Shown piece after piece: positions 6,468-15,896 of a stretch of DNA of 64,000 nt. The notes under the pieces are model-generated. The model had not been told where the DNA came from. It searched no databases and saw nothing but the letters and a program-made list of their open reading frames with translations. The DNA is from Lachnospiraceae bacterium. Lineage in GTDB: Bacteria > Bacillota > Clostridia > Lachnospirales > Lachnospiraceae. The stretch is taken from NCBI GenBank assembly GCA_022647575.1, contig JALCKY010000001.1:806001-870000 (forward strand), in the 5' to 3' direction. Position numbers and translations under genes: made by a program. The stretch's first letter is position 1. Every line of letters begins with the position of its first letter.

Positions 6468-8237
6468 TCAATCCTTGTTCAGCGGAATATCGTTAATCTT
6501 TCTCTTGACATACTTCGTGTGGAGAAGTTCATGCGCTTTCTCCGAGCCCGGTTTTCCGAGGAACTCCTTGTAGAGCTTCTGGATGGACGGATTCTCGTGA
6601 GACTTGCGGATTTCCTTCTTCTTGTCGTTGCTGTACAGAGCTTTTGCTCTCAGCGCGCGATAGTCCTCGAAGTTGCGGATATGGCTCGGGACGATCGGCT
6701 GGCCGCCGCCGTTGATGCAGCCGCCCGGGCAGCCCATGATTTCAATGAAATGGTACTGCTTCTTGCCGGACTTCACATCGTTGAGCAGGGCACGCGCATT
6801 GGCAAGTCCTGATGCGACAGCAACATTGACATCGGTTCCGGCTACGTTGTAGGTAGCTTCCTTGATACCCTTCATGCCGCGGACTTCCTTGAAGTCAAGG
6901 TCCTCAAGAGGTTTCTTGGTGACCCATTCAACTGCCGTACGGAGAGCTGCTTCCATGACGCCGCCGGTTGCTCCGAAGATAACGCCTGCACCGGTGGATT
7001 CGCCGAGCGGATCGTCGAAGCCTTCATTCGGAAGGTTTGCAAAATCGATTCCCGCTCTCTTGATCATACGGGCAAGTTCTCTTGTTGTCAGCGCGACGTC
7101 GCAGTCCGGAACATTCTTGCCCTCAGACTGGTATTTACGCGTGATTTCAAATTTCTTTGCTGTACACGGCATGACGCCGACGACAAACATGTCTTTCGGA
7201 TCAATGCCGGCTTTCTTTGCGAAATAAGTCTTCGCGATTGCGCCGAACATCTGCTGCGGAGACTTGCAGGAAGAAAGATTCTCACGCATATCCGGGAAAT
7301 AATACTCGCAGAACTTGACCCAGCCCGGGCTGCAGGAAGTGATCAGCGGAAGCGGTCCGGTATGCTTCGTCAGTCTTTCAACGAACTCGTTCGCTTCTTC
7401 CATGATGGTCAGATCCGCGCCGAAGTCGGTATCGAAGACTTTGGCAAAGCCCATGCGGCGCAGTGCCGCGGCAAGCTTGCCTTCGCAGTCCGTACCGATC
7501 GGGAAGCCGAATTCCTCGCCGATGGTGGCACGTGTGGACGGAGCCGTCTGTACGACGACATATTTCTTCGGATCTGCCAGAGCTGCCTCGACCTTGTCCG
7601 AATCGTCCTTCTCATGCAGAGCGCCTGTCGGGCAGACCACGATGCACTGTCCGCAGTTGACGCAGTTGGTATCTCCCAGCGGTACATCGTAAGCGCATCC
7701 GATATGGGCCTTGAAGCCGCGGCCGTTCGGTCCGAGGATGCCGATGCCCTGTGTTACATCGCAGGCTGCCACGCAGCGGCGGCAGAGGATGCATTTGTTG
7801 TTGTCGCGGATCAGATGGACCGATGAATCATCGATTTCATAATGTGTCCGCTCGCCGTCATAATAATGGGAATCTTCGATGCCGAGGTCTTTCGCCAGCT
7901 TCTGCAGCTCGCAGTTCTCGGAACGGATGCAGGAAAGGCACTTCTGGTCATGATTGGAAAGAATCAGTTCCAGTGTCTTCTTGCGTGCTTTGACGACTTT
8001 TTCAGTGTTGGTCCAGACTTCCATGCCCTCGCTGACCGGGTAAACACAGGAAGCCATCAGCGACCTTGCGCCCTTGATTTCGACAAGGCACATGCGGCAG
8101 TCGCCTACTTCATTGATTCCTTTCAGGTAGCAAAGAGTAGGGATGTCGATATTCGCCTTGTGGGCAGCTTCCAATACGGTGGTGCCGGTAGGTACGGTTA
8201 CCTCGACACCGTTGATTTTTAAAGTAATATCTGCCAT
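6468..8237 (-). CDS. hydA: [FeFe] hydrogenase catalytic subunit HydA (NADH-linked, multimeric type)
   Basis: Catalytic subunit that produces or oxidises H2 in the cytoplasm with HydB and HydC, probably electron-bifurcating or NADH-linked. Domains of the 589-residue protein in order: N-terminal [2Fe-2S] ferredoxin (C36, C47, C50, C64); His-Cys3 [4Fe-4S] site (H96, C100, C103, C109); two [4Fe-4S] sites (C149/152/155/159 and C192/195/198/202); the H-cluster domain with loop 1 TSCSPGW (301-306), loop 2 MPCTAKKFE (356-364) and loop 3 MGCPGGCINGGGQP (501-514); and a C-terminal small-subunit-like helix region ending AHELLHTKY. It is the last gene of the operon, 17 bases after hydB, with a GGGAGG site. 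No HydEFG maturation genes occur in the window. In loop 1, Ser occupies the second Cys position of the usual TSCCPxW. Confidence 0.95.
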   Translation of the reverse strand: MADITLKINGVEVTVPTGTTVLEAAHKANIDIPTLCYLKGINEVGDCRMCLVEIKGARSLMASCVYPVSEGMEVWTNTEKVVKARKKTLELILSNHDQKCLSCIRSENCELQKLAKDLGIEDSHYYDGERTHYEIDDSSVHLIRDNNKCILCRRCVAACDVTQGIGILGPNGRGFKAHIGCAYDVPLGDTNCVNCGQCIVVCPTGALHEKDDSDKVEAALADPKKYVVVQTAPSTRATIGEEFGFPIGTDCEGKLAAALRRMGFAKVFDTDFGADLTIMEEANEFVERLTKHTGPLPLITSCSPGWVKFCEYYFPDMRENLSSCKSPQQMFGAIAKTYFAKKAGIDPKDMFVVGVMPCTAKKFEITRKYQSEGKNVPDCDVALTTRELARMIKRAGIDFANLPNEGFDDPLGESTGAGVIFGATGGVMEAALRTAVEWVTKKPLEDLDFKEVRGMKGIKEATYNVAGTDVNVAVASGLANARALLNDVKSGKKQYHFIEIMGCPGGCINGGGQPIVPSHIRNFEDYRALRAKALYSNDKKKEIRKSHENPSIQKLYKEFLGKPGSEKAHELLHTKYVKRKINDIPLNKD

Positions 8238-8254: not shown

Positions 8255-10042
8255 TTACTCTTTGTAGACGGCGCCGAACTTGCAGACGTCCATACAGGTG
8301 CCGCACTTGATACATTTCTGAGCATCGATTTCATGAGGCTGCTTGACGGTTCCGGAGATAGCTGACACCGGGCAGTTGCGCGCGCACATTGTGCAGCCGC
8401 GGCATTTATCCTTGTCGATGTGATAGCCGATGAGGGCTTTGCAGACGCCGGCCGGGCATTTCTTATCGACGATATGTGCCACATACTCATCATGGAAATA
8501 GCGCATCGTGGAGAGCACCGGGTTCGGAGCTGTCTGTCCGAGTGCGCACAGGGAGTTTTCTTTAATGGCATAGCAGAGTTCCTCGAGCTTGTCGAGGTCA
8601 TCCATGGTTGCCTTGCCTTCCGTAATCTTGGTCAGGTATTCCAGCATGCGCTTCGTGCCGATACGGCAGGGTGCGCATTTTCCGCAGGATTCATCGACCG
8701 TGAATTCCAGGAAGAACTTCGCGATATCGACCATGCAGTTGTCCTCATCCATGACGATGAGTCCGCCGGATCCCATCATGGAACCGATCTTGATCAGGTT
8801 GTCGTAATCGATCGGGACATCAAGATTCTCAGTGGAAATGCAGCCGCCGGAAGGTCCGCCGGTCTGAGCCGCCTTGAATTTCTTTCCGTTCGGGATGCCG
8901 CCGCCGATATCGAAGATGATCTCGCGGAGCGTCGTGCCCATCGGGATTTCGACAAGTCCGGTGTTGTTGATCTTGCCGCCGAGGGCGAAGACCTTCGTGC
9001 CTTTTGACTTCTCTGTTCCCATCGAAGCGAACCATTCCGCACCCTTCATGATGATCTGCGGAACGTTTGCCCATGTCTCAACGTTGTTCAGGATGGTCGG
9101 TTTTCCGAAAAGTCCCTTGACTGCCGGGAATGGCGGTCTCGGTCTCGGCTCGCCTCTCTCGCCTTCAATGGAGTGCATGAGGGCTGTCTCCTCGCCGCAG
9201 ACAAATGCGCCGGCGCCCAGACGAAGCTCGATATCGAAATCAAATCCCGTGCCGAAGATGTTCTTGCCGAGCAGGCCGTATTTATGAGCCTGATCGATGG
9301 CGATCTGAAGTCTCTTGACGGCGATCGGGTACTCAGCACGGACGTAAATGTAGCCCTGTGAAGATCCGATCGTGTAGCCTGCGATAGCCATGCCTTCCAG
9401 AACGACATGCGGATCGCCTTCAAGGACGGAACGGTCCATGAATGCACCCGGGTCGCCTTCGTCGGCGTTGCAGCAGACATATTTCTGATCTGCGGCATTT
9501 CCCTTTGCGAACATCCACTTGCGTCCTGTCGGGAAGCCTGCGCCGCCGCGGCCGCGAAGTCCGGAATCAAGAAGGACTTTAATGACGTCATCCGGGGTCA
9601 TTTCCGTCAGAACTTTTCCGAGTGCCTCATAGCCGCCCGTTCCGATGTATTCATCGATATTCTCCGGGTTGATGACACCGCAGTTCCGAAGGGCGATACG
9701 ATGCTGCTTCTTATAGAAGTTCGTATCATTTAAAGAACGGACGCCTGTATCCGTAACAGTCTCGTCATAGACAAGGCGCTTGACAGGACGGCCTTTGAGA
9801 AGATGCTCTGTGACGATCTCCGGAACATCGGAATCTTTCACTCTCGTGTAAAGGGTTCCTTCCGGATAGACCATCATGATCGGGCCGAGTGCGCACAGTC
9901 CGTGGCAGCCCGTTTCAACAACCTGGACTTCATCTTCCAGGTCGTTCTTTTTCAGTTCGGTTTTCAGGGAATCAATGACCTTCAGACTTCCGGAGGACGT
10001 ACACCCTGTTCCACCGCAAACCAAAACATGTGAACGATACAT
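8255..10042 (-). CDS. hydB: NADH-binding hydrogenase subunit HydB (NuoF-like)
   Basis: Flavoprotein subunit that exchanges electrons between NAD(H) and the hydrogenase. In the 595-residue protein I see an N-terminal thioredoxin-like [2Fe-2S] domain (LVCGGTGCTSSG and ETGCHGLCALGP), the NuoF core with the glycine-rich NADH/FMN loop RGRGGAGFPTGRKW and GAFVCGEETALMHSIEG, the NuoF [4Fe-4S] site ESCGKCAPCRIGTKR, and a C-terminal pair of [4Fe-4S] sites (CRGCTMCARNCP and CIKCGTCMDVCK). This four-part layout is that of HydB of trimeric and tetrameric NADH-linked [FeFe] hydrogenases. AGGAGG lies about 8 bases before the ATG. It sits between the [2Fe-2S] protein gene and hydA. Confidence 0.95.
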   Translation of the reverse strand: MYRSHVLVCGGTGCTSSGSLKVIDSLKTELKKNDLEDEVQVVETGCHGLCALGPIMMVYPEGTLYTRVKDSDVPEIVTEHLLKGRPVKRLVYDETVTDTGVRSLNDTNFYKKQHRIALRNCGVINPENIDEYIGTGGYEALGKVLTEMTPDDVIKVLLDSGLRGRGGAGFPTGRKWMFAKGNAADQKYVCCNADEGDPGAFMDRSVLEGDPHVVLEGMAIAGYTIGSSQGYIYVRAEYPIAVKRLQIAIDQAHKYGLLGKNIFGTGFDFDIELRLGAGAFVCGEETALMHSIEGERGEPRPRPPFPAVKGLFGKPTILNNVETWANVPQIIMKGAEWFASMGTEKSKGTKVFALGGKINNTGLVEIPMGTTLREIIFDIGGGIPNGKKFKAAQTGGPSGGCISTENLDVPIDYDNLIKIGSMMGSGGLIVMDEDNCMVDIAKFFLEFTVDESCGKCAPCRIGTKRMLEYLTKITEGKATMDDLDKLEELCYAIKENSLCALGQTAPNPVLSTMRYFHDEYVAHIVDKKCPAGVCKALIGYHIDKDKCRGCTMCARNCPVSAISGTVKQPHEIDAQKCIKCGTCMDVCKFGAVYKE

Positions 10043-10059: not shown

Positions 10060-10455
10060 TTATTTATTCTTTGCGGAATTTTCCGCATCACGTACGGTAT
10101 GAAGCATAAATTCGACGATCGGCTTTCCGCCCTCAAGATGTTCCTTGACGACGCGTTTCGCTTTATCCTTATCCATATGGACATAAGTGATCTTCGGCTT
10201 GCCCGGCTCATAGATCTCGACGATCGGCTCGTACTGGCAAAGTCCGATGCAGCCGGTCTGTGAAACCATGACATCCTTGACATGATCCTTCTGGACCTCA
10301 TCGGAGATCTCCGTAAGAACCGGTCTTGCACCGGCTGCGATTCCGCAGGTTGCCATTCCGACAAGCACGCGGGTCTTGGCATTCTCTTCTTCACGAAGAC
10401 CAAGCTGACCCTGCATCTTTTCGCGAATCGCTTTTAACTCTTCCAAACTCTTCAT
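10060..10455 (-). CDS. Thioredoxin-like [2Fe-2S] ferredoxin of the hydrogenase operon
   Basis: A 131-residue protein with the thioredoxin-like [2Fe-2S] fold: GMATCGIAAGA (first two-residue-spaced ligand region) and SQTGCIGLCQYEPIVEI (second pair), followed by a helix and HLEGGKPI. It resembles the free-standing ferredoxin domain found between the ATPase and hydB genes in hydrogenase operons of acetogens, where the equivalent open frame has been called HydD. It may be an extra electron-transfer subunit. The start has AGGAAA a few bases upstream, and the gene is 17 bases before hydB. Its need for activity is not known from sequence. Confidence 0.88.
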   Translation of the reverse strand: MKSLEELKAIREKMQGQLGLREEENAKTRVLVGMATCGIAAGARPVLTEISDEVQKDHVKDVMVSQTGCIGLCQYEPIVEIYEPGKPKITYVHMDKDKAKRVVKEHLEGGKPIVEFMLHTVRDAENSAKNK

Positions 10456-10490: not shown

Positions 10491-11048
10491 TTATTCTACC
10501 TGGCCGTGATCGACTTCCTGTTTATTTTCCGCAAGGTAGCTCAGGATGTACTCCTGGACCTCCGGTTCGGAAAATGGAACGTCTCCCAGGATTTCCCTCA
10601 TTTCCCTGGTGTCAAGCGCAAAGGATTGACCGTCGTAGGAATAGGTATAGAGGAAATCTGTTTCAGGGTGATACACGACGAGCTGCTGTATCGTGTGACT
10701 GATATCGCCCAGCGGCATCCGGTCAATATTGGAATACTGAAAAGCCGCTCTTACATTTGTTCCTCTCCCGACTTCCGAGGCAATGGAGAAATCTCCGTTT
10801 GCCGCCAAAGCTGCCTGTTTGAGGAACGGCACTCCCAGTCCTACTTTCCTTGTCGTCCGTGTCGTGAAAAACGGATCTTCGACACGCTTTACCTGTTCTT
10901 CCGTCATCCCGCATCCGTCGTCGTCAATCGTCAGGACCATCGTATCTTTCACGGTGTCGATCGCGATTCCGATCCGGACCAGCGAAGCCTTTGCACGGGT
11001 TGAGTTCTCGGCAACATCAAGGATGCTGAGAGAAATTTCGGGCATCAT
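10491..11048 (-). CDS. Histidine-kinase-like ATPase in hydrogenase operon
   Basis: A 185-residue protein with an N-terminal GHKL ATPase domain: LDVAENSTRAKAS (N box), IDDDGCGM (G1 box), DPFFTTRTTRKVGLGVPFLKQAA (F and G2 boxes) and VGRGTNV. It lacks a dimerisation and phosphoacceptor His domain, so it is not a classical sensor kinase. Small ATPases occur at this position (hydE in the acetogen nomenclature, not the maturase HydE) in related hydrogenase operons; the role is unproven. The ATG lies 3 bases after the hydC stop and has no Shine-Dalgarno, suggesting translational coupling. An alternative start is the next codon, also ATG. Confidence 0.85.
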   Translation of the reverse strand: MMPEISLSILDVAENSTRAKASLVRIGIAIDTVKDTMVLTIDDDGCGMTEEQVKRVEDPFFTTRTTRKVGLGVPFLKQAALAANGDFSIASEVGRGTNVRAAFQYSNIDRMPLGDISHTIQQLVVYHPETDFLYTYSYDGQSFALDTREMREILGDVPFSEPEVQEYILSYLAENKQEVDHGQVE

Positions 11049-11051
11049 GGT

Positions 11052-11543
11052 TTATTTGAAGGATTCAAGGATCGGTTTCAGTTTGTCAAGCGAAAGTCTC
11101 CCGTAGACTTCTCCGTTGATCATCATGGCCGGAGCAAGTCCGCATGCTCCCAGGCACCTGCAGGCTTCCAGCGAGAACTTGCCGTCTGATGTGCACTGTC
11201 CTCCCGCGATGCCGAGAAGTTCCTGAAGCTTCGAATAGATCGGTCCGGAGCTCTTGACGTAGCATGCTGTTCCTAAGCATACCTGAATTTTGTACTTGCC
11301 TTTTGGATTAAGTGAAAACTGTGAATAGAATGTTGAGACACCGTAGACTCTCTCCAGCGGAATCTGAAGCTTGTCGGAGATGATGGTCTGTACCTCAATG
11401 GGGAGATAGCCGTAAATTTCCTGCGCCTGCTGAAGCACCGGTACCAGACATCCCGGTTTGTCCTTCAGTTCTTTGATGACGGCGAGGAGGGCTTTTTCCT
11501 GCTTTGCGGTGCCTTTGAAGGGAACTGTAGAGATTGTTGACAT
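11052..11543 (-). CDS. hydC: NuoE-like [2Fe-2S] hydrogenase subunit HydC
   Basis: The 24-kDa NuoE-like subunit that carries one [2Fe-2S] cluster beside the HydB flavin. The 163-residue protein has the helical start KQEKALLAVIKELKD, IYGYLPIE, YGVSTFYSQF, and the four cluster cysteines in CLGTACYVKS and CRCLGACGLAPAMMI. I chose the ATG at 11543 rather than the start of the longer frame at 11753: the upstream extension is AT-rich promoter DNA, and a strong AGGAGG lies 5 bases before this ATG. It is the first gene of the hydrogenase operon, facing away from the DRTGG/PHP operon. Confidence 0.95.
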   Translation of the reverse strand: MSTISTVPFKGTAKQEKALLAVIKELKDKPGCLVPVLQQAQEIYGYLPIEVQTIISDKLQIPLERVYGVSTFYSQFSLNPKGKYKIQVCLGTACYVKSSGPIYSKLQELLGIAGGQCTSDGKFSLEACRCLGACGLAPAMMINGEVYGRLSLDKLKPILESFK

Positions 11544-11561
11544 AGAGGCCTCCTTGAATGT

Positions 11562-11579
11562 TGAATAAATTTTTAACAA
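11562..11579 (-). promoter_or_regulatory. Weak Rex-like site in hydC leader
   Basis: The half-site TTAACAA (11573-11579; TTGTTAA on the minus strand) is a perfect half of the Rex consensus TTGTTAA-N4-TTAACAA, but the other half (TGAATAA) matches only 4 of 7. It lies between the hydC promoter region and start codon. NADH-linked hydrogenases are commonly Rex-controlled, which is why I record it, at low confidence. Confidence 0.22.
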
Positions 11580-11592
11580 AGCATGTATAGAC

Positions 11593-11601
11593 ATTTTAGC
11601 A
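11593..11601 (-). promoter_or_regulatory. Candidate extended -10 promoter of the hydC-hydA operon
   Basis: On the minus strand the sequence is TGCTAAAAT (extended -10). It lies 50 bases before the hydC ATG. No convincing -35 is present. Directly upstream, on its -35 side, is an inverted repeat, GAAAAT-N4-ATTTTC flanked by TGTCT and AGACA, which could be a regulator site. Confidence 0.4.
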
Positions 11602-11675
11602 TAAATATGTCTGAAAATCCATATTTTCAAGCACTTTAGACAGATTTTTATTTTCTGCCAATATATTTTTGATTT

Positions 11676-11704
11676 TTGTATGCATGCCCTGTTTATGCTA
11701 TACT
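11676..11704 (+). promoter_or_regulatory. Promoter of the DRTGG-PHP operon
   Basis: A -35 TTGTAT (11676-11681), 17-bp spacer and extended -10 TGCTATACT (hexamer 11699-11704), 42 bases before the first start codon. It is divergent from the hydC promoter. Confidence 0.6.
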
Positions 11705-11746
11705 GGACACGATATGACGACCCGATGCAAAAGGGGGAAAATGAAA

Positions 11747-12094
11747 ATGACAATCAAAGATGTCATGGATATTACCGGCGCCAAAGTACTGACCGGGGAA
11801 GAGAATCTGAACCGGGAGGTTTCGAACGCCTTCGGCTCGGACCTGATGAGCGATGTGCTCGCCTACGCAAAAGACTGTTCCATCCTGCTGACCGGCCTTG
11901 CCAACGCGCAGGCAATCCGGACGGCGGACATGCTGGATATCGGCTGCGTCATTTTCGTACGCGGCAAAATGCCGGACGAACAGATGCTTGCCCTTGCCCG
12001 CGACAAGGACATGGTCGTGCTGCAGACCGGAAACTTCATGTTCACGACCTGCGGCCTCCTCTATAAGGCAGGCATTACCGGAGCATCGGTATGA
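11747..12094 (+). CDS. DRTGG-domain protein, first copy
   Basis: A 115-residue protein beginning MTIKDVMDITGAKVLTGE, then SNAFGSDLMSDVLAYAKDCSILLTGLANAQAIRTAD. This matches the DRTGG domain family (found in phosphotransacetylase and HPr-kinase-like proteins and CBS-PPase), thought to bind a nucleotide or similar ligand. I chose the ATG at 11747 over 11741 because the GGGGG ribosome site then has normal spacing and the start aligns with the paralogue at 14014. It overlaps the next gene by four bases (ATGA). Its partners (RsbW-like ATPase, hydrogenase-like protein, PHP protein) imply a signalling role; the ligand is unknown. Confidence 0.85.
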   Translation: MTIKDVMDITGAKVLTGEENLNREVSNAFGSDLMSDVLAYAKDCSILLTGLANAQAIRTADMLDIGCVIFVRGKMPDEQMLALARDKDMVVLQTGNFMFTTCGLLYKAGITGASV

Positions 12095-12522
12095 GCGAAC
12101 CTGCTGAACCGCTGGTCCTGAATTATAATGTCGTCAAAGATGACTACACCCGCGCCGGCGAAGCCTCCGGAGACGTCAAGAAAAAGCTTCGGATGGCAGG
12201 CGTCGATTCGGCCGTCATCCGCAAGGTCGCCATCTGCATGTATGAGGGCGAAATCAATATGGTCATCCATGCGGAAGGCGGCAGGATCAGGGTCGAGATC
12301 TTTCCGGACAGAATCCGGATGATCCTGATGGACAAGGGTCCCGGCATCAAAGACGTGAGCAAGGCTATGCAGGCCGGCTGGTCGACTGCTTCCGAAGAGG
12401 CAAGAAATCTCGGCTTCGGAGCCGGCATGGGCCTGCCCAACATGAAAAAGAATTCCGATACGATGGATATCGACACGGTTCTCGGACAGGGAACGACCGT
12501 GACGATGACCGTCAACTGCTGA
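12091..12522 (+). CDS. RsbW/SpoIIAB-like ATP-binding protein
   Basis: A 143-residue stand-alone GHKL ATPase. Key motifs are YEGEINMVIHA (N box, with Glu and Asn), LMDKGPGIKD (G1) and NLGFGAGMGLPNMKKNSD (ATP lid and G2), ending GTTVTMTVN. This is the size and motif set of anti-sigma-factor or serine-kinase ATPases (RsbW, RsbT, SpoIIAB). No anti-anti-sigma (STAS) partner or sigma factor is beside it. The start overlaps the DRTGG gene stop, indicating translational coupling. Such ATPases recur beside the hydrogenase-like gene in clostridia; I infer it relays or gates the signal from that protein. Confidence 0.88.
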   Translation: MSEPAEPLVLNYNVVKDDYTRAGEASGDVKKKLRMAGVDSAVIRKVAICMYEGEINMVIHAEGGRIRVEIFPDRIRMILMDKGPGIKDVSKAMQAGWSTASEEARNLGFGAGMGLPNMKKNSDTMDIDTVLGQGTTVTMTVNC

Positions 12523-12557
12523 ACCAATAAAAAATATCCGGCAAAGGAGCTGAGGAT

Positions 12558-13973
12558 TTGGCTGATCAGGTCAATACCTATTTTCACAGCGTCGGCATCG
12601 ACAGAAACGCATGCAAGGGATGCATCCACTGCATCAAGTTCTGTCCTATGGAAGCCATCCGCGTCCGCAACCGCAAGGCGGTCATCACGGCGGAGCGCTG
12701 CATCGACTGCGGTGAATGCGTGCGCAACTGCAGTAACCATGCCGCACGCGCTACAGTCGACAATTTAAAAATACTCAGTACCCACAAGTACAATGTGGCA
12801 CTGGCGGCGATGCCTCTCTTTGCACAGTTCAAGAATCTGGATGACCCGAACATTCTTCTGAACGCCATTTTGAATCTGGGATTCGACGACGTTTTTGAAG
12901 TGGCGCTCGGGGCTGAGATCCTGGCGAACCGTTCCAGGGATTTCATCGCGACCCATCAGGAGAACTGGCCGTATCTGAGTACGAACTGTCCGGCCATCGT
13001 GCGTCTCGTCCGCATGAGGTTTCCGAACCTGGCGGACCATCTTCTGCCGCTCCGGAACTCCACGGAAATATCCGCGCAGATCGCGCTGGCCCAGGCCATG
13101 GAGAAAACCGGTCTTCCGGAAGAAGACATCGGCATCATCGATATCGCCCCGTGTCCAGCGCACGTGGCATTTTCCCACGAGCCTCTCGGCATCAAAAAGA
13201 GCCATGTAACGGGGAACCTTTCCATCAAGGGAATCTATCCTCTCCTTCTCCGGGAAATGCCCAAGGTGCGTGACAACCCGAAGAAGCTTTCACGTGCCAG
13301 CTCGCTCGGACTGGGATGGCGCGCGGACGGCACCGGCGGCGGGTACATTTCCAATAACTATATCTCCGCCAGCGGCGTTTCGAACGTCGTGGAAATCCTG
13401 GAAGAGCTGGAAGACGACAAGATCGTCGGCTACGACTATCTCGACCTTTATACCTGCAACGGCGGGTGCGTCGGCGGCATGCTGAATGTGGAGAACCCGT
13501 ACATCGCACGGGCGGACCTCCGTTCCGTGCGCGCCGCGATGCCGAAGAAGACAGCGAAAAATGACCTGCCGTTTGCCGGCGACATTTCCTGGACCAGCCG
13601 CATCCGCACGGACAACGTCTACAAGCTCGGCGACACCATGGTGGAATCCCTGCAGAGACTGGCCGCTGCCGAACAGATTCAGGAAGAATTCCCGGGTCTG
13701 GACTGCGGCTCCTGCGGCGCTCCGACCTGCAAGGCCCTCGCCGAGGACATCGTCCGCGGCAAGGCTTATAAGAACGACTGCATCTATTTCATGCGCGATC
13801 ATATCCATGCGCTGACAAAGGAACTCAATACCATTTCCGACGAGATCAACACTTCCATCGCCGGGGAAAATGGGCACCCGACCCAGAAACAGGTCGAGAA
13901 GCTTCAGCATTACATCACCCAGCTGTGGGCCGAACTCAATGAGCTGGACAGCCGCTTCAAGCAGGAATCCTGA
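12558..13973 (+). CDS. [FeFe]-hydrogenase-like protein, putative H2 sensor
   Basis: A 471-residue protein read from a TTG start at 12558, with AAGGAG upstream. Order: two [4Fe-4S] sites (C19/22/25/29 and C48/51/54/58); an H-cluster-type domain in which four presumed ligands remain (C144, C199, C300, C304); an extra Cys motif CGSCGAPTC (C383, C386, C391, with C408); and a C-terminal helical or coiled-coil tail from about residue 412. The loops differ from catalytic enzymes: STNCPAI replaces TSCCPxW, APCPAH replaces MPCxxK, and TCNGGCVGG replaces MxCxxGCxxGGG. The residue that is the proton-shuttling Cys in catalytic hydrogenases is Asn143. This fits the putative sensory [FeFe]-hydrogenase lineage (group C/D type), but without a PAS domain. 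It sits with two DRTGG proteins, an ATPase and a PHP protein, divergent from hydCBA. Confidence 0.85.
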   Translation: MADQVNTYFHSVGIDRNACKGCIHCIKFCPMEAIRVRNRKAVITAERCIDCGECVRNCSNHAARATVDNLKILSTHKYNVALAAMPLFAQFKNLDDPNILLNAILNLGFDDVFEVALGAEILANRSRDFIATHQENWPYLSTNCPAIVRLVRMRFPNLADHLLPLRNSTEISAQIALAQAMEKTGLPEEDIGIIDIAPCPAHVAFSHEPLGIKKSHVTGNLSIKGIYPLLLREMPKVRDNPKKLSRASSLGLGWRADGTGGGYISNNYISASGVSNVVEILEELEDDKIVGYDYLDLYTCNGGCVGGMLNVENPYIARADLRSVRAAMPKKTAKNDLPFAGDISWTSRIRTDNVYKLGDTMVESLQRLAAAEQIQEEFPGLDCGSCGAPTCKALAEDIVRGKAYKNDCIYFMRDHIHALTKELNTISDEINTSIAGENGHPTQKQVEKLQHYITQLWAELNELDSRFKQES

Positions 13974-14013
13974 ACGGCTTTTTCCGGAAATGAACCTGTA
14001 AGGGGGAAACGCA

Positions 14014-14346
14014 ATGACCGTACAAGAACTGATCGATACCGGAGACTTCAAAGTCCTGAACCAGGGGGACGATCTTTCCGCGGAAATTACCAAAGTCTTC
14101 TGCTGCGACCTGCTGTCCGTCGCCATGAGCCATGCACCGGCAGGCTGCGCCTGGGTAACCGTCATGGGCAATATGAACACCCTGGCCGTCGCTTCCCTGA
14201 CCGAATCCGCCTGCGTCATCATGGCGGAGAACACCGACATGGATGATGCGGGAATCGCGAAAGCTTCGCAGCAGGGCATCACCCTGCTGAAAACGTCCCT
14301 GCCGATTTTCGAGGCAGCCCTCAGCATCCATCAGAAACTCGGCTGA
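14014..14346 (+). CDS. DRTGG-domain-like protein, second copy
   Basis: A 110-residue protein beginning MTVQELIDTGDFKVLNQGDD and containing VFCCDLLSVAMSHAPAGCAWVTVMGNMNTLAVASL. It is similar in length and pattern to the first DRTGG protein of this operon (start, SD-L motif, GN/AN-A region), so I read the two as paralogues. Homologues are often annotated as DRTGG or serine-kinase-like hydrogenase-associated proteins. The ribosome site is AAGGGGG. It lies 40 bases after the hydrogenase-like gene and 5 bases before the PHP gene. Confidence 0.82.
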   Translation: MTVQELIDTGDFKVLNQGDDLSAEITKVFCCDLLSVAMSHAPAGCAWVTVMGNMNTLAVASLTESACVIMAENTDMDDAGIAKASQQGITLLKTSLPIFEAALSIHQKLG

Positions 14347-14351
14347 CGAAA

Positions 14352-15086
14352 ATGATCCCGATTTATTATGATTTCCATCTTCATTCCTGCCTCTCTCCCT
14401 GCGGATCCGAGGACATGACTCCCGCAAACATCGCCGGCATGGCTCTTGTGAACGGACTGCAGGCGTTTGCCCTGACAGACCACAACACGGCAAAGAACTG
14501 TCCGGCGGCCGCTGCGCACGCAAAGGAATACGGCCTTACCTTTCTCCCGGGAATGGAACTGACGACCCAGGAGGAAGTTCATGTCCTGTGTCTTTTTGCC
14601 AGAGTCGAAGATGCGCTGGCTTTCGATTCCTATGTCCACGAGCGCATCCAGCCGGTTGAGAACAAGCCGGATTATTTCGGACATGAAACCATCATGAATG
14701 AAAAGGACGAACCGGTCGGGGAGGAGCCTCTGCTTCTGATCAACGCCACGACGATTTCTTTCGATTCTCTCCAGGATCTCGTCGAGAAATACGGCGGCGT
14801 CATGGTGCCGGCCCACATCGACAAGTCTTCCAATGCCCTTTTGGCCAACCTCGGCTTCGTTCCGCCGGACAGTCATTTTACGACGGTCGAATATGCGCAT
14901 ATCGAAAATGCGGAACGGCTGGAAAAAGAAAACCCTTATCTTGTTTCCTGCCGGAAGATCACCGATTCGGATGCCCATTATCTGGAAAATGTCAATCAGG
15001 CTGTGAACATCCTCCATGTAAAAGAGAACACGCCGGAGGCCATTCTCGAAGTCCTGCGATCAGGACGCTCAAAACGGACAGAATGA
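14352..15086 (+). CDS. PHP-domain metal-dependent phosphoesterase
   Basis: A 244-residue protein with the four PHP metal-binding motifs: DFHLHSCLSPCG (HxH, residues 8-10), ALTDHNT, a conserved Glu in GMELTTQEE, and VPAHID and SDAHYL further on. PHP proteins hydrolyse phosphoesters, including nucleotides, with two or three metal ions; the substrate is unknown. It is the last gene of the DRTGG operon and starts 5 bases after the preceding gene, presumably by translational coupling, as no clear Shine-Dalgarno is present. A terminator follows at 15116-15148. In the context of two DRTGG proteins it could degrade a small signalling nucleotide; that is speculation. Confidence 0.9.
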   Translation: MIPIYYDFHLHSCLSPCGSEDMTPANIAGMALVNGLQAFALTDHNTAKNCPAAAAHAKEYGLTFLPGMELTTQEEVHVLCLFARVEDALAFDSYVHERIQPVENKPDYFGHETIMNEKDEPVGEEPLLLINATTISFDSLQDLVEKYGGVMVPAHIDKSSNALLANLGFVPPDSHFTTVEYAHIENAERLEKENPYLVSCRKITDSDAHYLENVNQAVNILHVKENTPEAILEVLRSGRSKRTE

Positions 15087-15115
15087 CGTCTTCGTTGCTT
15101 GAACAGGAAAGAGGG

Positions 15116-15148
15116 CTGTGCTAGAATTCACTTTGGCACAGTTTTTTT
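15116..15148 (+). terminator. Terminator of the DRTGG-PHP operon
   Basis: Stem CTGTGC (15116-15121) and GCACAG (15136-15141) followed directly by seven T. It lies 29 bases past the PHP stop and just before the aquaporin gene. Confidence 0.8.
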
Positions 15149-15176
15149 ATTTCATCACAGGAGGAGGGTTTTTATC

Positions 15177-15896
15177 ATGAAAAAGTATGCTGCTGAATTT
15201 ATCGGAACAGCCGTTCTTACACTGTTCGGCTGCGGGTCCGCAGCAATCTCCGGAGGCGTAACGGGTGTTCTCGGCGTTTTCGGAATTGCGGCAGCCTTCG
15301 GTCTGTCAATCGTGGCTATGGCTTATGTCATCGGAGACGTTTCCGGATGCCACATCAATCCTGCCGTTTCACTCGGTGTTTTCCTGAACGGCGGCATGAG
15401 TGCAAAAGATTTCATCGGCTATATCATTTCTCAGATTCTCGGAGGCCTCTTCGGCGCTCTTCTGCTTTTTGCCATCATGACGAACTGCACCGGAATCGAT
15501 GTCGCTTCCAACGGTCTCGGAACGAACGGCTATGACAGTGCTTCCTATGTCGGCCTGAATGCCGGCGGTGCTTTCCTGGTGGAAGTGATTCTTACTTTCG
15601 TTTTCGTCTTTACGATCCTCGGTGTTACGGCCCATGTCAAGAATTCACGCATCGCCGGTCTGGTCATCGGACTGACTCTTACGTTTGTTCACATTCTCGG
15701 CATCCCGCTGACAGGAACTTCTGTCAACCCGGCACGTTCATTCGGACCGGCTGTCGTTTCCGCTATCTTCGACGGCGGCGCTGCCTTCTCCCAGGTCTGG
15801 GTATTCATCCTCGCTCCGCTTGTCGGCGCAGTCCTTGCCGCCTTCCTTTACAGGCTGATCTGCAAGCAGGATGATACGAAGCAGGAAGCAGCCTGA
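15177..15896 (+). CDS. Aquaporin / glycerol facilitator family channel (MIP)
   Basis: A 239-residue membrane channel with six predicted membrane segments. Both half-helix NPA boxes are present: CHINPAVSLG and TSVNPARSFGPAV. The sequence between (GTNGYDSASYVGLNAGGAFLVEVILTF) and the short loops look like the AqpZ water-channel subgroup rather than glycerol facilitators. I chose the ATG at 15177, beginning MKKYAAEFIGTAVLTLFGCG, because GGAGGAGGG lies upstream; the longer frame from 15099 would read through the preceding terminator. It is monocistronic: a terminator precedes it and the long palindrome follows. Confidence 0.94.
   Translation: MKKYAAEFIGTAVLTLFGCGSAAISGGVTGVLGVFGIAAAFGLSIVAMAYVIGDVSGCHINPAVSLGVFLNGGMSAKDFIGYIISQILGGLFGALLLFAIMTNCTGIDVASNGLGTNGYDSASYVGLNAGGAFLVEVILTFVFVFTILGVTAHVKNSRIAGLVIGLTLTFVHILGIPLTGTSVNPARSFGPAVVSAIFDGGAAFSQVWVFILAPLVGAVLAAFLYRLICKQDDTKQEAA

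Follow-up and report, generated by a model that had tools for sequence, protein, structure and literature searches.

Sensory hydrogenases and a five-gene module facing a hydrogenase operon

Sensory [FeFe]-hydrogenases are the closest described relatives of the system considered here, a five-gene module built around a HydS-like protein and encoded in a 64,000-nucleotide stretch of a Lachnospiraceae bacterium genome (GenBank assembly GCA_022647575.1, contig JALCKY010000001.1, positions 806,001 to 870,000 of the forward strand; hereafter, the window). Papers are cited by PMC number. TamHydS, the group D (M2e) HydS of Thermoanaerobacter mathranii, catalyzes H2 turnover and has been proposed to act as a sensor (PMC8163306), in agreement with an earlier note on this DNA according to which putative sensory [FeFe]-hydrogenases exist. 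A sensory role was proposed by Land et al., who named an ATPase and a neighbor of the AraC type; DRTGG and PHP proteins are not mentioned in the available portion of their text. TmHydS and other group C (M2f) proteins with a PAS domain (PMC10055695), and HfsB of Thermoanaerobacterium (PMC11837493), share the H-domain and the C-terminal Fe-S motif with the HydS of the window, and are likewise proposed sensors located in a hydrogenase operon. A gene list of the same kind as that of the window has been published for Halanaerobium hydrogeniformans, where Halsa_1862-1871 comprise a hydrogenase, an NADH dehydrogenase, a ferredoxin-like protein, a histidine kinase, NuoE, a PHP protein, an Fe-S hydrogenase, an Fe-S protein, an anti-sigma factor and an unidentified open reading frame (ORF) (PMC4237134); the available portion of that article gives the list only and does not discuss the module, its mechanism or the sensor variant. 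Finally, the hydABC genes of the window and the formate dehydrogenase-linked sister sets described below fit the BfuABC family of bifurcating flavoenzymes, which includes formate dehydrogenase types (PMC9304861); the text of that paper contains none of the terms sensor, anti-sigma, histidine kinase and neighborhood. Our literature search, which covered few subscription papers, returned no account of the mechanism of the module or of an H2-blind group D HydS, nor any of the roles of the DRTGG and PHP proteins in this setting, which the earlier note had held to be undescribed. HydS chemistry is already published.

The module consists of five ORFs on the + strand, spanning positions 11741-15086 of the window:

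11741..12094, + strand: DRTGG1, a DRTGG-domain protein of 117 amino acids (aa) (PF07085, 29.6 bits; cut-off 25.2)
12091..12522, + strand: SpoIIAB/RsbW-like GHKL ATPase, a probable serine kinase of 143 aa (HATPase_c_2, 40.7 bits; cut-off 27.4)
12558..13973, + strand: HydS of the group D (M2e) type, 471 aa (Pfam, cysteine motifs, conservation, AlphaFold fold)
14014..14346, + strand: DRTGG2, a paralogue of DRTGG1, 110 aa (fold match, hhalign)
14352..15086, + strand: PHP-family metallophosphoesterase, 244 aa (PF02811, 32.6 bits, cut-off 26.4; PHP_C PF13263, 26.6 bits, cut-off 21.3)

The description of these genes as tightly packed holds, with a 4-base overlap between the DRTGG1 and RsbW-like ORFs followed by gaps of 35, 40 and 5 bases; the HydS-like ORF starts at a TTG codon with AAAGGAG upstream. 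Also as described, the module faces hydCBA across a common region of about 200 bp: 197 bp separate it from the start of hydC (11543), the first gene of a divergent - strand operon of the order hydC-HATPase-Fdx-hydB-hydA, and position 11593, at which the earlier note had begun the module, falls within this intergenic region. The same ten-gene set is found in Thermoanaerobacter wiegelii (locus L059). On the evidence presented below, we see an about even chance that the locus represents one instance of a widespread module signaling the ferredoxin/NADH redox balance, in which an Fe-S sensor, HydS, would act on an RsbW-like kinase whose targets would be the DRTGG proteins. Linkage and gene fusions point to the RsbW-like ATPase as the partner of HydS, and to the DRTGG proteins as the next step.

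Linkage, fusions and exchange of the sensor

Gene neighborhoods were compared across 80 named loci, selected as the top 80 by HydS similarity from among 579 confirmed relatives. Linkage counts take only those named loci with enough flank; they include L038, which lies on the same contig as the seed L031 and was left out of the conservation, tree and Rex counts. The RsbW-like gene is next to that of HydS in 77/78 named loci, the genes for DRTGG1, DRTGG2 and PHP are linked to it in 66/74, 62/77 and 55/69, respectively, and all five are present in 51/64. The five-gene order, recurring as it does in many genomes, is therefore not a matter of chance. Of the full modules flanked by at least 8 kb on each side, 26/31 have hydA/hydB within the same stretch, as against 0/10 of the partial-module loci with at least 4 kb. 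These figures support the notion of a module that is linked, lies next to hydABC and is probably regulatory. As to whether the neighbors are always retained with the HydS homologue, a question put by the earlier note, the RsbW-like gene comes close and the full set less so, DRTGG2 and PHP being absent from Spirochaete loci. Ten such loci keep RsbW-HydS and four of them also DRTGG1, their flanks not being long in all cases. Because the RsbW-HydS pair is kept there without DRTGG2 and PHP, it is the core of the module, and DRTGG2 and PHP accompany the full set. In some partial modules, a further gene, assigned from its sequence alone, lies upstream of RsbW-HydS: a CheW-like gene in L058 and a response-regulator gene in L063 and L096.

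Co-occurrence across genomes follows the same lines. Among 398 genomes of the phylum, whose relatedness makes the counts non-independent, HydS was found in 161 and a module-type PHP protein in 154, with both in 148 and PHP without HydS in 6; DRTGG1 was found in 156, 144 times with HydS and 12 times without. Within the genus of the window (25 genomes), HydS is present in four genomes only, and the same four alone have a HydA at least 65% identical to that of the window, HydA in the others being at most 56% identical or unmatched at the cut-off. Module and hydA allele thus travel together.

Several of the module proteins also occur fused in single ORFs, namely DRTGG1-RsbW (L129, L130), HydS-DRTGG2 (L131, L132), RsbW-HydS (L133) and PHP-HATPase (L128, L144, L157), the last joining PHP to the second GHKL ATPase otherwise encoded within the hyd operon. 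In six loci devoid of HydS (L118, L119, L120, L125, L126 and L135), DRTGG1 is accompanied by an RsbW-like protein that carries at its N-terminus a CBS pair, recognized by Pfam in L118 and L125 and from the sequence in L119, L120, L126 and L135. DRTGG2, PHP and HATPase genes then follow in all of these loci except L135, which runs into an rnf operon, and four further loci (L121, L123, L124, L134) consist of DRTGG1-DRTGG2-PHP-HATPase only. The gene for Rex, confirmed by NCBIfam, lies directly upstream of the sister modules L121, L123 and L125, and rnfC is found at L135 and L119. The hyd-like operon of the modules in L143 and L151 has a formate dehydrogenase alpha subunit at its end, following an in-frame TGA (TIGR01591 over cut-off); the same pattern of in-frame TGA and formate dehydrogenase was recognized by sequence or regular expression in L141, L142, L144, L153, L157 and L159. 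Consistent with a connection to Rex, Rex-like sites with at most one mismatch were found upstream of DRTGG1 in 5/107 cases against a shuffle mean of 0.06, and with at most three mismatches in 29/107 against a shuffle mean of 8.66 and a maximum of 16 over 50 shuffles. Judged from gene content, the common denominator is ferredoxin/NAD(H) enzymes together with Rex, not hydrogenase alone. Since these parts are also found next to formate dehydrogenase, rex and rnf, and without HydS, a role confined to the control of hydrogenase does not fit.

Part of this evidence would also suit a reading in which the module genes encode assembly, repair or activity factors of a bifurcating flavoenzyme of the BfuABC type rather than a signaling chain. 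HATPase lies inside the enzyme operon in the 54 of the 70 loci with hydB in which the order HydC-HATPase-Fdx-HydB is conserved, and the module follows the BfuBC core whether the catalytic part is hydrogenase or formate dehydrogenase. We nevertheless regard such a function as very improbable, in that HydS-less modules are found next to rex where the stretch compared contains no hyd genes (L121, L123-L126, L134) and the RsbW-like protein folds like an anti-sigma kinase.

The H2 pocket of the window HydS

We know of no PAS domain in, and of no partner for, any group D HydS. The window protein scores 73.4 bits with Fe_hyd_lg_C (cut-off 22.1) and 45.3 bits with the C-terminal Fe-S domain (cut-off 23), and also contains ferredoxin domains. 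Its two N-terminal [4Fe-4S] motifs (C19, C22, C25, C29 and C48, C51, C54, C58) precede an H-domain with C144, C199, C300 and C304, and a C-terminal Cx2Cx4Cx16C motif (C383, C386, C391, C408); the four H-domain and the four C-terminal cysteines are kept in 117/117 HydS rows of the alignment. Pfam searches of the window HydS yielded no PAS domain, unlike group C (M2f) HydS, and hydA lies in the divergent operon, group D proteins being often encoded with a group A hydrogenase. This architecture is that of TamHydS (PMC8163306, PMC10407848, PMC13104023). The AlphaFold model (mean predicted local distance difference test score, pLDDT, 88.4) has [FeFe]-hydrogenases as its nearest solved folds, with a template modeling (TM) score of about 0.6, and is least certain, within the pocket, over residues 251-260.

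Where the window HydS departs from TamHydS is in the H2 pocket. Five positions were scored: K358, which we take to be the lysine contacting the [2Fe] subcluster; a serine or threonine at the M353 position; and E252, D265 and E289 of TamHydS. In the window protein these are replaced by histidine (window H202), alanine (the position is S or T in 115/117 rows), threonine, serine and aspartate, respectively, and S249 is also an alanine. The window HydS thus keeps 0/5 positions, and the sister HydS of the same genus (L028) 1/5, as compared to all five in 103/117 rows. Lysine is found at K358 in 111/117 rows, so that most members of the HydS family may plausibly carry out H2 chemistry, and the HydS of most relatives may also react with H2; when the maturase-negative and control genomes described below are added to the 117-row alignment, non-lysine residues at this position amount to 9/153 rows. 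On a HydS tree built by a quick method, loss of the lysine corresponds to 4 changes, 3 of them forced by starred branches, regain of the lysine being possible and the placement of the long branches L143 and L122 unsure.

Because M353 S/T, E252, E289, S249 and D265 are all altered, the window protein was filed as a divergent relative of group D rather than as a working H2 enzyme, and because all five scored positions are changed, H2 sensing by it is unlikely. The earlier proposal that the operon senses H2 or redox state accordingly stands for its redox half, which is likely, and not for H2. Decay of the gene offers no better account: pN/pS (nonsynonymous over synonymous changes per site) between the window HydS and its sister copy is 0.23, a ratio that is only rough since the synonymous divergence dS is saturated but that speaks for purifying selection, and with the cluster cysteines kept we rejected a decaying pseudogene. 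The protein and its cluster sites are retained, and H2 chemistry has probably gone; as far as sequence can tell, the most fitting interpretation of the window HydS is that of an Fe-S redox sensor blind to H2, one that more likely senses electron balance than H2. A HydS ORF split in two overlapping parts of 133 and 329 aa was seen in L141 (8575-9950; genome G131, one contig), in a module that is otherwise complete and lies beside formate dehydrogenase, and is attributable to frameshift or decay.

The distribution of HydS among genomes without detected hydrogenase or maturases was examined in a sample of 299 genomes, of which 120 were HydS-positive and 36 of these HydF-negative, HydF being scored on the top 6 candidates per genome. 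HydA was over the cut-off in 28 of the 36 and not in the other eight, and G323 was the only one with HydE and HydG over the cut-off. Missing HydE, HydF and HydG were rejected as proof of an H2-blind HydS, since 28 of these genomes have HydA with no HydF detected. This means that some of the maturase negatives are false or that those HydA are matured by another route. A heliobacterium is reported to have HydA but no hydEFG (PMC9147875). Five HydA from the 28 genomes were inspected and have canonical L1 and L2 motifs. HydE and HydG over the cut-off were likewise missing from 27 of these 28 genomes; G131 and G273, of one contig each, are among the 36 HydF-negative genomes. In the eight genomes without detected HydA, HydE, HydF or HydG, K358 is lost in five (G068, G334, G212 and G262, of one family, and G092); among the other 28 HydF-negative genomes, 27 of which were readable, it is lost in one (G067), and 20/20 HydF-positive control genomes keep all five pocket positions. 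This pattern fits a HydS working without a [2Fe] site.

These observations bear directly on the possibility that the window HydS is an H2 sensor despite its altered pocket, reporting H2 pressure to the kinase and thereby tuning hydABC. TamHydS, of the same group, turns over H2 and is a proposed sensor (PMC8163306); the H-cluster cysteines are all kept in the window protein, hydA is adjacent, HydE and HydF are encoded in the genome, and K358 is kept in most HydS rows. We consider H2 sensing unlikely on balance, given that no scored pocket position is left, that no HydG over the cut-off was found in the genome of the window (94% complete), and that the module is also kept next to formate dehydrogenase and in genomes where no hydrogenase was detected. 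As a natural variant of the H2 pocket, the window HydS lends itself to comparison with the studied TamHydS.

The ATPase, DRTGG and PHP proteins and a proposed signaling chain

The RsbW-like ATPase resembles SpoIIAB/RsbW partner-switching kinases in its GHKL fold, matching anti-sigma F factor 1til in profile comparison (E-value 6.5e-12), and in E52 and N56, which align with the N-box E and N of SpoIIAB and are at least 95% conserved in 102 rows. Its scores with curated anti-sigma models are below cut-off (TIGR01925, 49.8/135; NF003144, 20.1/145). DRTGG1 is at least 95% conserved across 95 rows at D34, S37, D38, T51, G52, Q57, R60, T61, R74, G75 and K76, with AF1212 and the regulatory domains of CBS-pyrophosphatases as nearest solved structures (E-values 0.002-0.003). 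DRTGG2, below the PF07085 cut-off of 25.2 with 21.7 bits, was assigned from its alignment to DRTGG1 (hhalign probability 98.9, E-value 1.1e-17) and from its AlphaFold model (mean pLDDT 97.2), the best match of which is the DRTGG protein AF1212 (TM score 0.81); D32, L33, L34, S35, W47, T49 and N55 are at least 95% conserved in 89 rows. Both proteins thus share an invariant or nearly invariant D-x-x-S, located at a helix start in the DRTGG2 model. They have the DRTGG fold of AF1212 and of the CBS-DRTGG region of family II pyrophosphatases, and sister modules also pair CBS with DRTGG; unlike these relatives, the DRTGG pair of the module is free-standing and carries D-x-x-S, the GDR stretch of AF1212 aligning elsewhere. 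The PHP protein is conserved in 83 rows at H9, H11, D43, H44, E69, H77, H155, D207 and H209, which we take to be the metal-ligand motif set; its nearest solved relatives are 7ug9, 2anu, 3e0f and 2yb1, and it is below the curated models for 3',5'-nucleoside bisphosphate phosphatase/CehA-McbA (NF041577, 39.6/400; NF038032, 50.5/80).

In the chain that we propose, the Fe-S clusters of HydS would exchange electrons with the cellular redox pool, and the state of HydS would act on the adjoining RsbW-like ATPase; linkage and one fusion are observed, from which a contact may be surmised. The ATPase, a probable serine kinase, might be switched by HydS or, in sister modules, by the CBS pair. Its likely targets would be DRTGG1 and DRTGG2 at the conserved D-x-x-S, by analogy with STAS proteins, the substrates of RsbW. 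The DRTGG pair, PHP and the second ATPase of the hyd operon may then relay the signal to the genes of the bifurcating enzyme or to the enzyme itself; they would probably do so together with the repressor Rex, as the adjacency of rex and the Rex-like sites suggest. PHP might serve as the phosphatase counteracting the kinase, or have a nucleotide as its substrate. That the PHP/HATPase branch touches the enzyme is suggested by the PHP-HATPase fusions and by the position of HATPase inside the enzyme operon.

A number of observations weigh against this reading. Phosphorylation of the DRTGG proteins is something we purely infer. Unlike SpoIIAB/RsbW systems, the module has HydS and DRTGG proteins as partners, and neither a STAS protein or sigma factor, the usual partners of RsbW, nor a PP2C phosphatase was matched among the five proteins. 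DRTGG2 and PHP were not seen in the ten Spirochaete loci, not all of which are long-flanked. With regard to an H2-blind HydS, three of the eight genomes without detected HydA, HydE, HydF or HydG (G144, G178, G194) keep the whole pocket, G407 has lost the lysine despite having HydE and HydG, and the genome of the window has HydA, HydE and HydF despite the loss of the pocket. Moreover, although TamHydS E252V/D retains less than 0.01% of H2 oxidation and E289A/D at most 3%, H2 evolution is less affected, at 10-20% for E252V/D and 70% for E289D (PMC10407848), so that pocket changes need not abolish all chemistry.

Along the lines of the earlier note, in which the DRTGG and PHP proteins were suggested to bind and destroy a small phosphorylated signal, these proteins could instead belong to a system in which a nucleotide is the signal, bound by the DRTGG pair (or by the CBS pair of sister modules) and hydrolyzed by PHP, HydS being a structural relic. 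Sister modules in which a CBS pair takes the place of HydS would agree with this, as would the pyrophosphatase CBS-DRTGG part among the solved relatives of DRTGG, whose structure has presumably been solved with nucleotides, and the nearest PHP relatives, which act on nucleotides or RNA. We hold it to be improbable, because HydS is under purifying selection with all cluster ligands kept, because loci keeping RsbW-HydS lack DRTGG2 and PHP, which are thus not core, and because PHP is far below nucleotide-phosphatase models such as NF041577.

Extending the redox-signaling reading beyond this locus, it is possible, if somewhat doubtful, that the module is a general one with a plug-in sensor (group D HydS or a CBS pair) and one RsbW-like kinase phosphorylating DRTGG proteins, and that HydS, having shed its H2 chemistry in several lineages, is there a pure Fe-S electron sensor for ferredoxin/NADH enzymes, here beside a working hydrogenase. 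Should HydS be able to function with its H2 chemistry gone, the label "sensory hydrogenase" may in many cases denote a sensor of electrons, and our picture of H2 regulation among gut and syntrophic anaerobes would change.

The facing operon, the control region and neighboring genes

The divergent operon and the region that it shares with the module comprise the following features:

11544..11740, no strand: shared control region of the two divergent operons, 197 bp
11562..11579, + strand: Rex-operator-like site TGAATAAATTTTTAACAA, 3 mismatches to TTGTTAAN4TTAACAA
11052..11543, - strand: hydC, NuoE-like subunit of the bifurcating hydrogenase (PF01257, 164.5 bits)
10491..11048, - strand: HATPase, second GHKL ATPase, inside the hyd operon (PF02518, 50.5 bits)
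10060..10455, - strand: Fdx, thioredoxin-like [2Fe-2S] protein of the hyd operon (PF01257, 21.2 bits, below cut-off)
8255..10042, - strand: hydB, NuoF-like flavoprotein subunit (PF01512, PF10589)
6468..8237, - strand: hydA, catalytic subunit of a group A6 [FeFe]-hydrogenase (NF040763, 908.9 bits; cut-off 765)

With NF040763 over cut-off and the hydB and hydC domains in place, the operon encodes a bifurcating HydABC of group A6. The second GHKL ATPase and the thioredoxin-like [2Fe-2S] protein are not mentioned in the earlier note. The Rex-like site TGAATAAATTTTTAACAA is the sole match with at most three mismatches in the 64 kb, against a chance expectation of 1.38, and is weak when taken alone. 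A sigma-70 promoter scan returned few sites, none of them decisive. An RNA element within 11400-15300 (no Rfam match), a plasmid origin (a single plasmid record, of 90 kb, with a coverage of 28% and an identity of 68.6%) and a defense system (no PADLOC match for six proteins) were considered and rejected.

Directly downstream of the PHP gene, at 15171-15896, lies a gene judged from its sequence to encode a MIP-type channel (aquaporin/glycerol facilitator), a counterpart of which was not seen among the relatives of the seed. Elsewhere in the genome, HydE and HydF are encoded on separate contigs (G000:C1:270489-271475 and G000:C11:25590-26738, respectively). Another H-domain protein, with a PAS-like C-terminus and 26% identity to HydS, is encoded at G000:C1:929532-930758; together with a small HydC-like ORF and a third hydrogenase-like ORF, it makes up a region (G000:C1:926324-930758; L037, 6234-10800) that is probably a group C sensory cluster.

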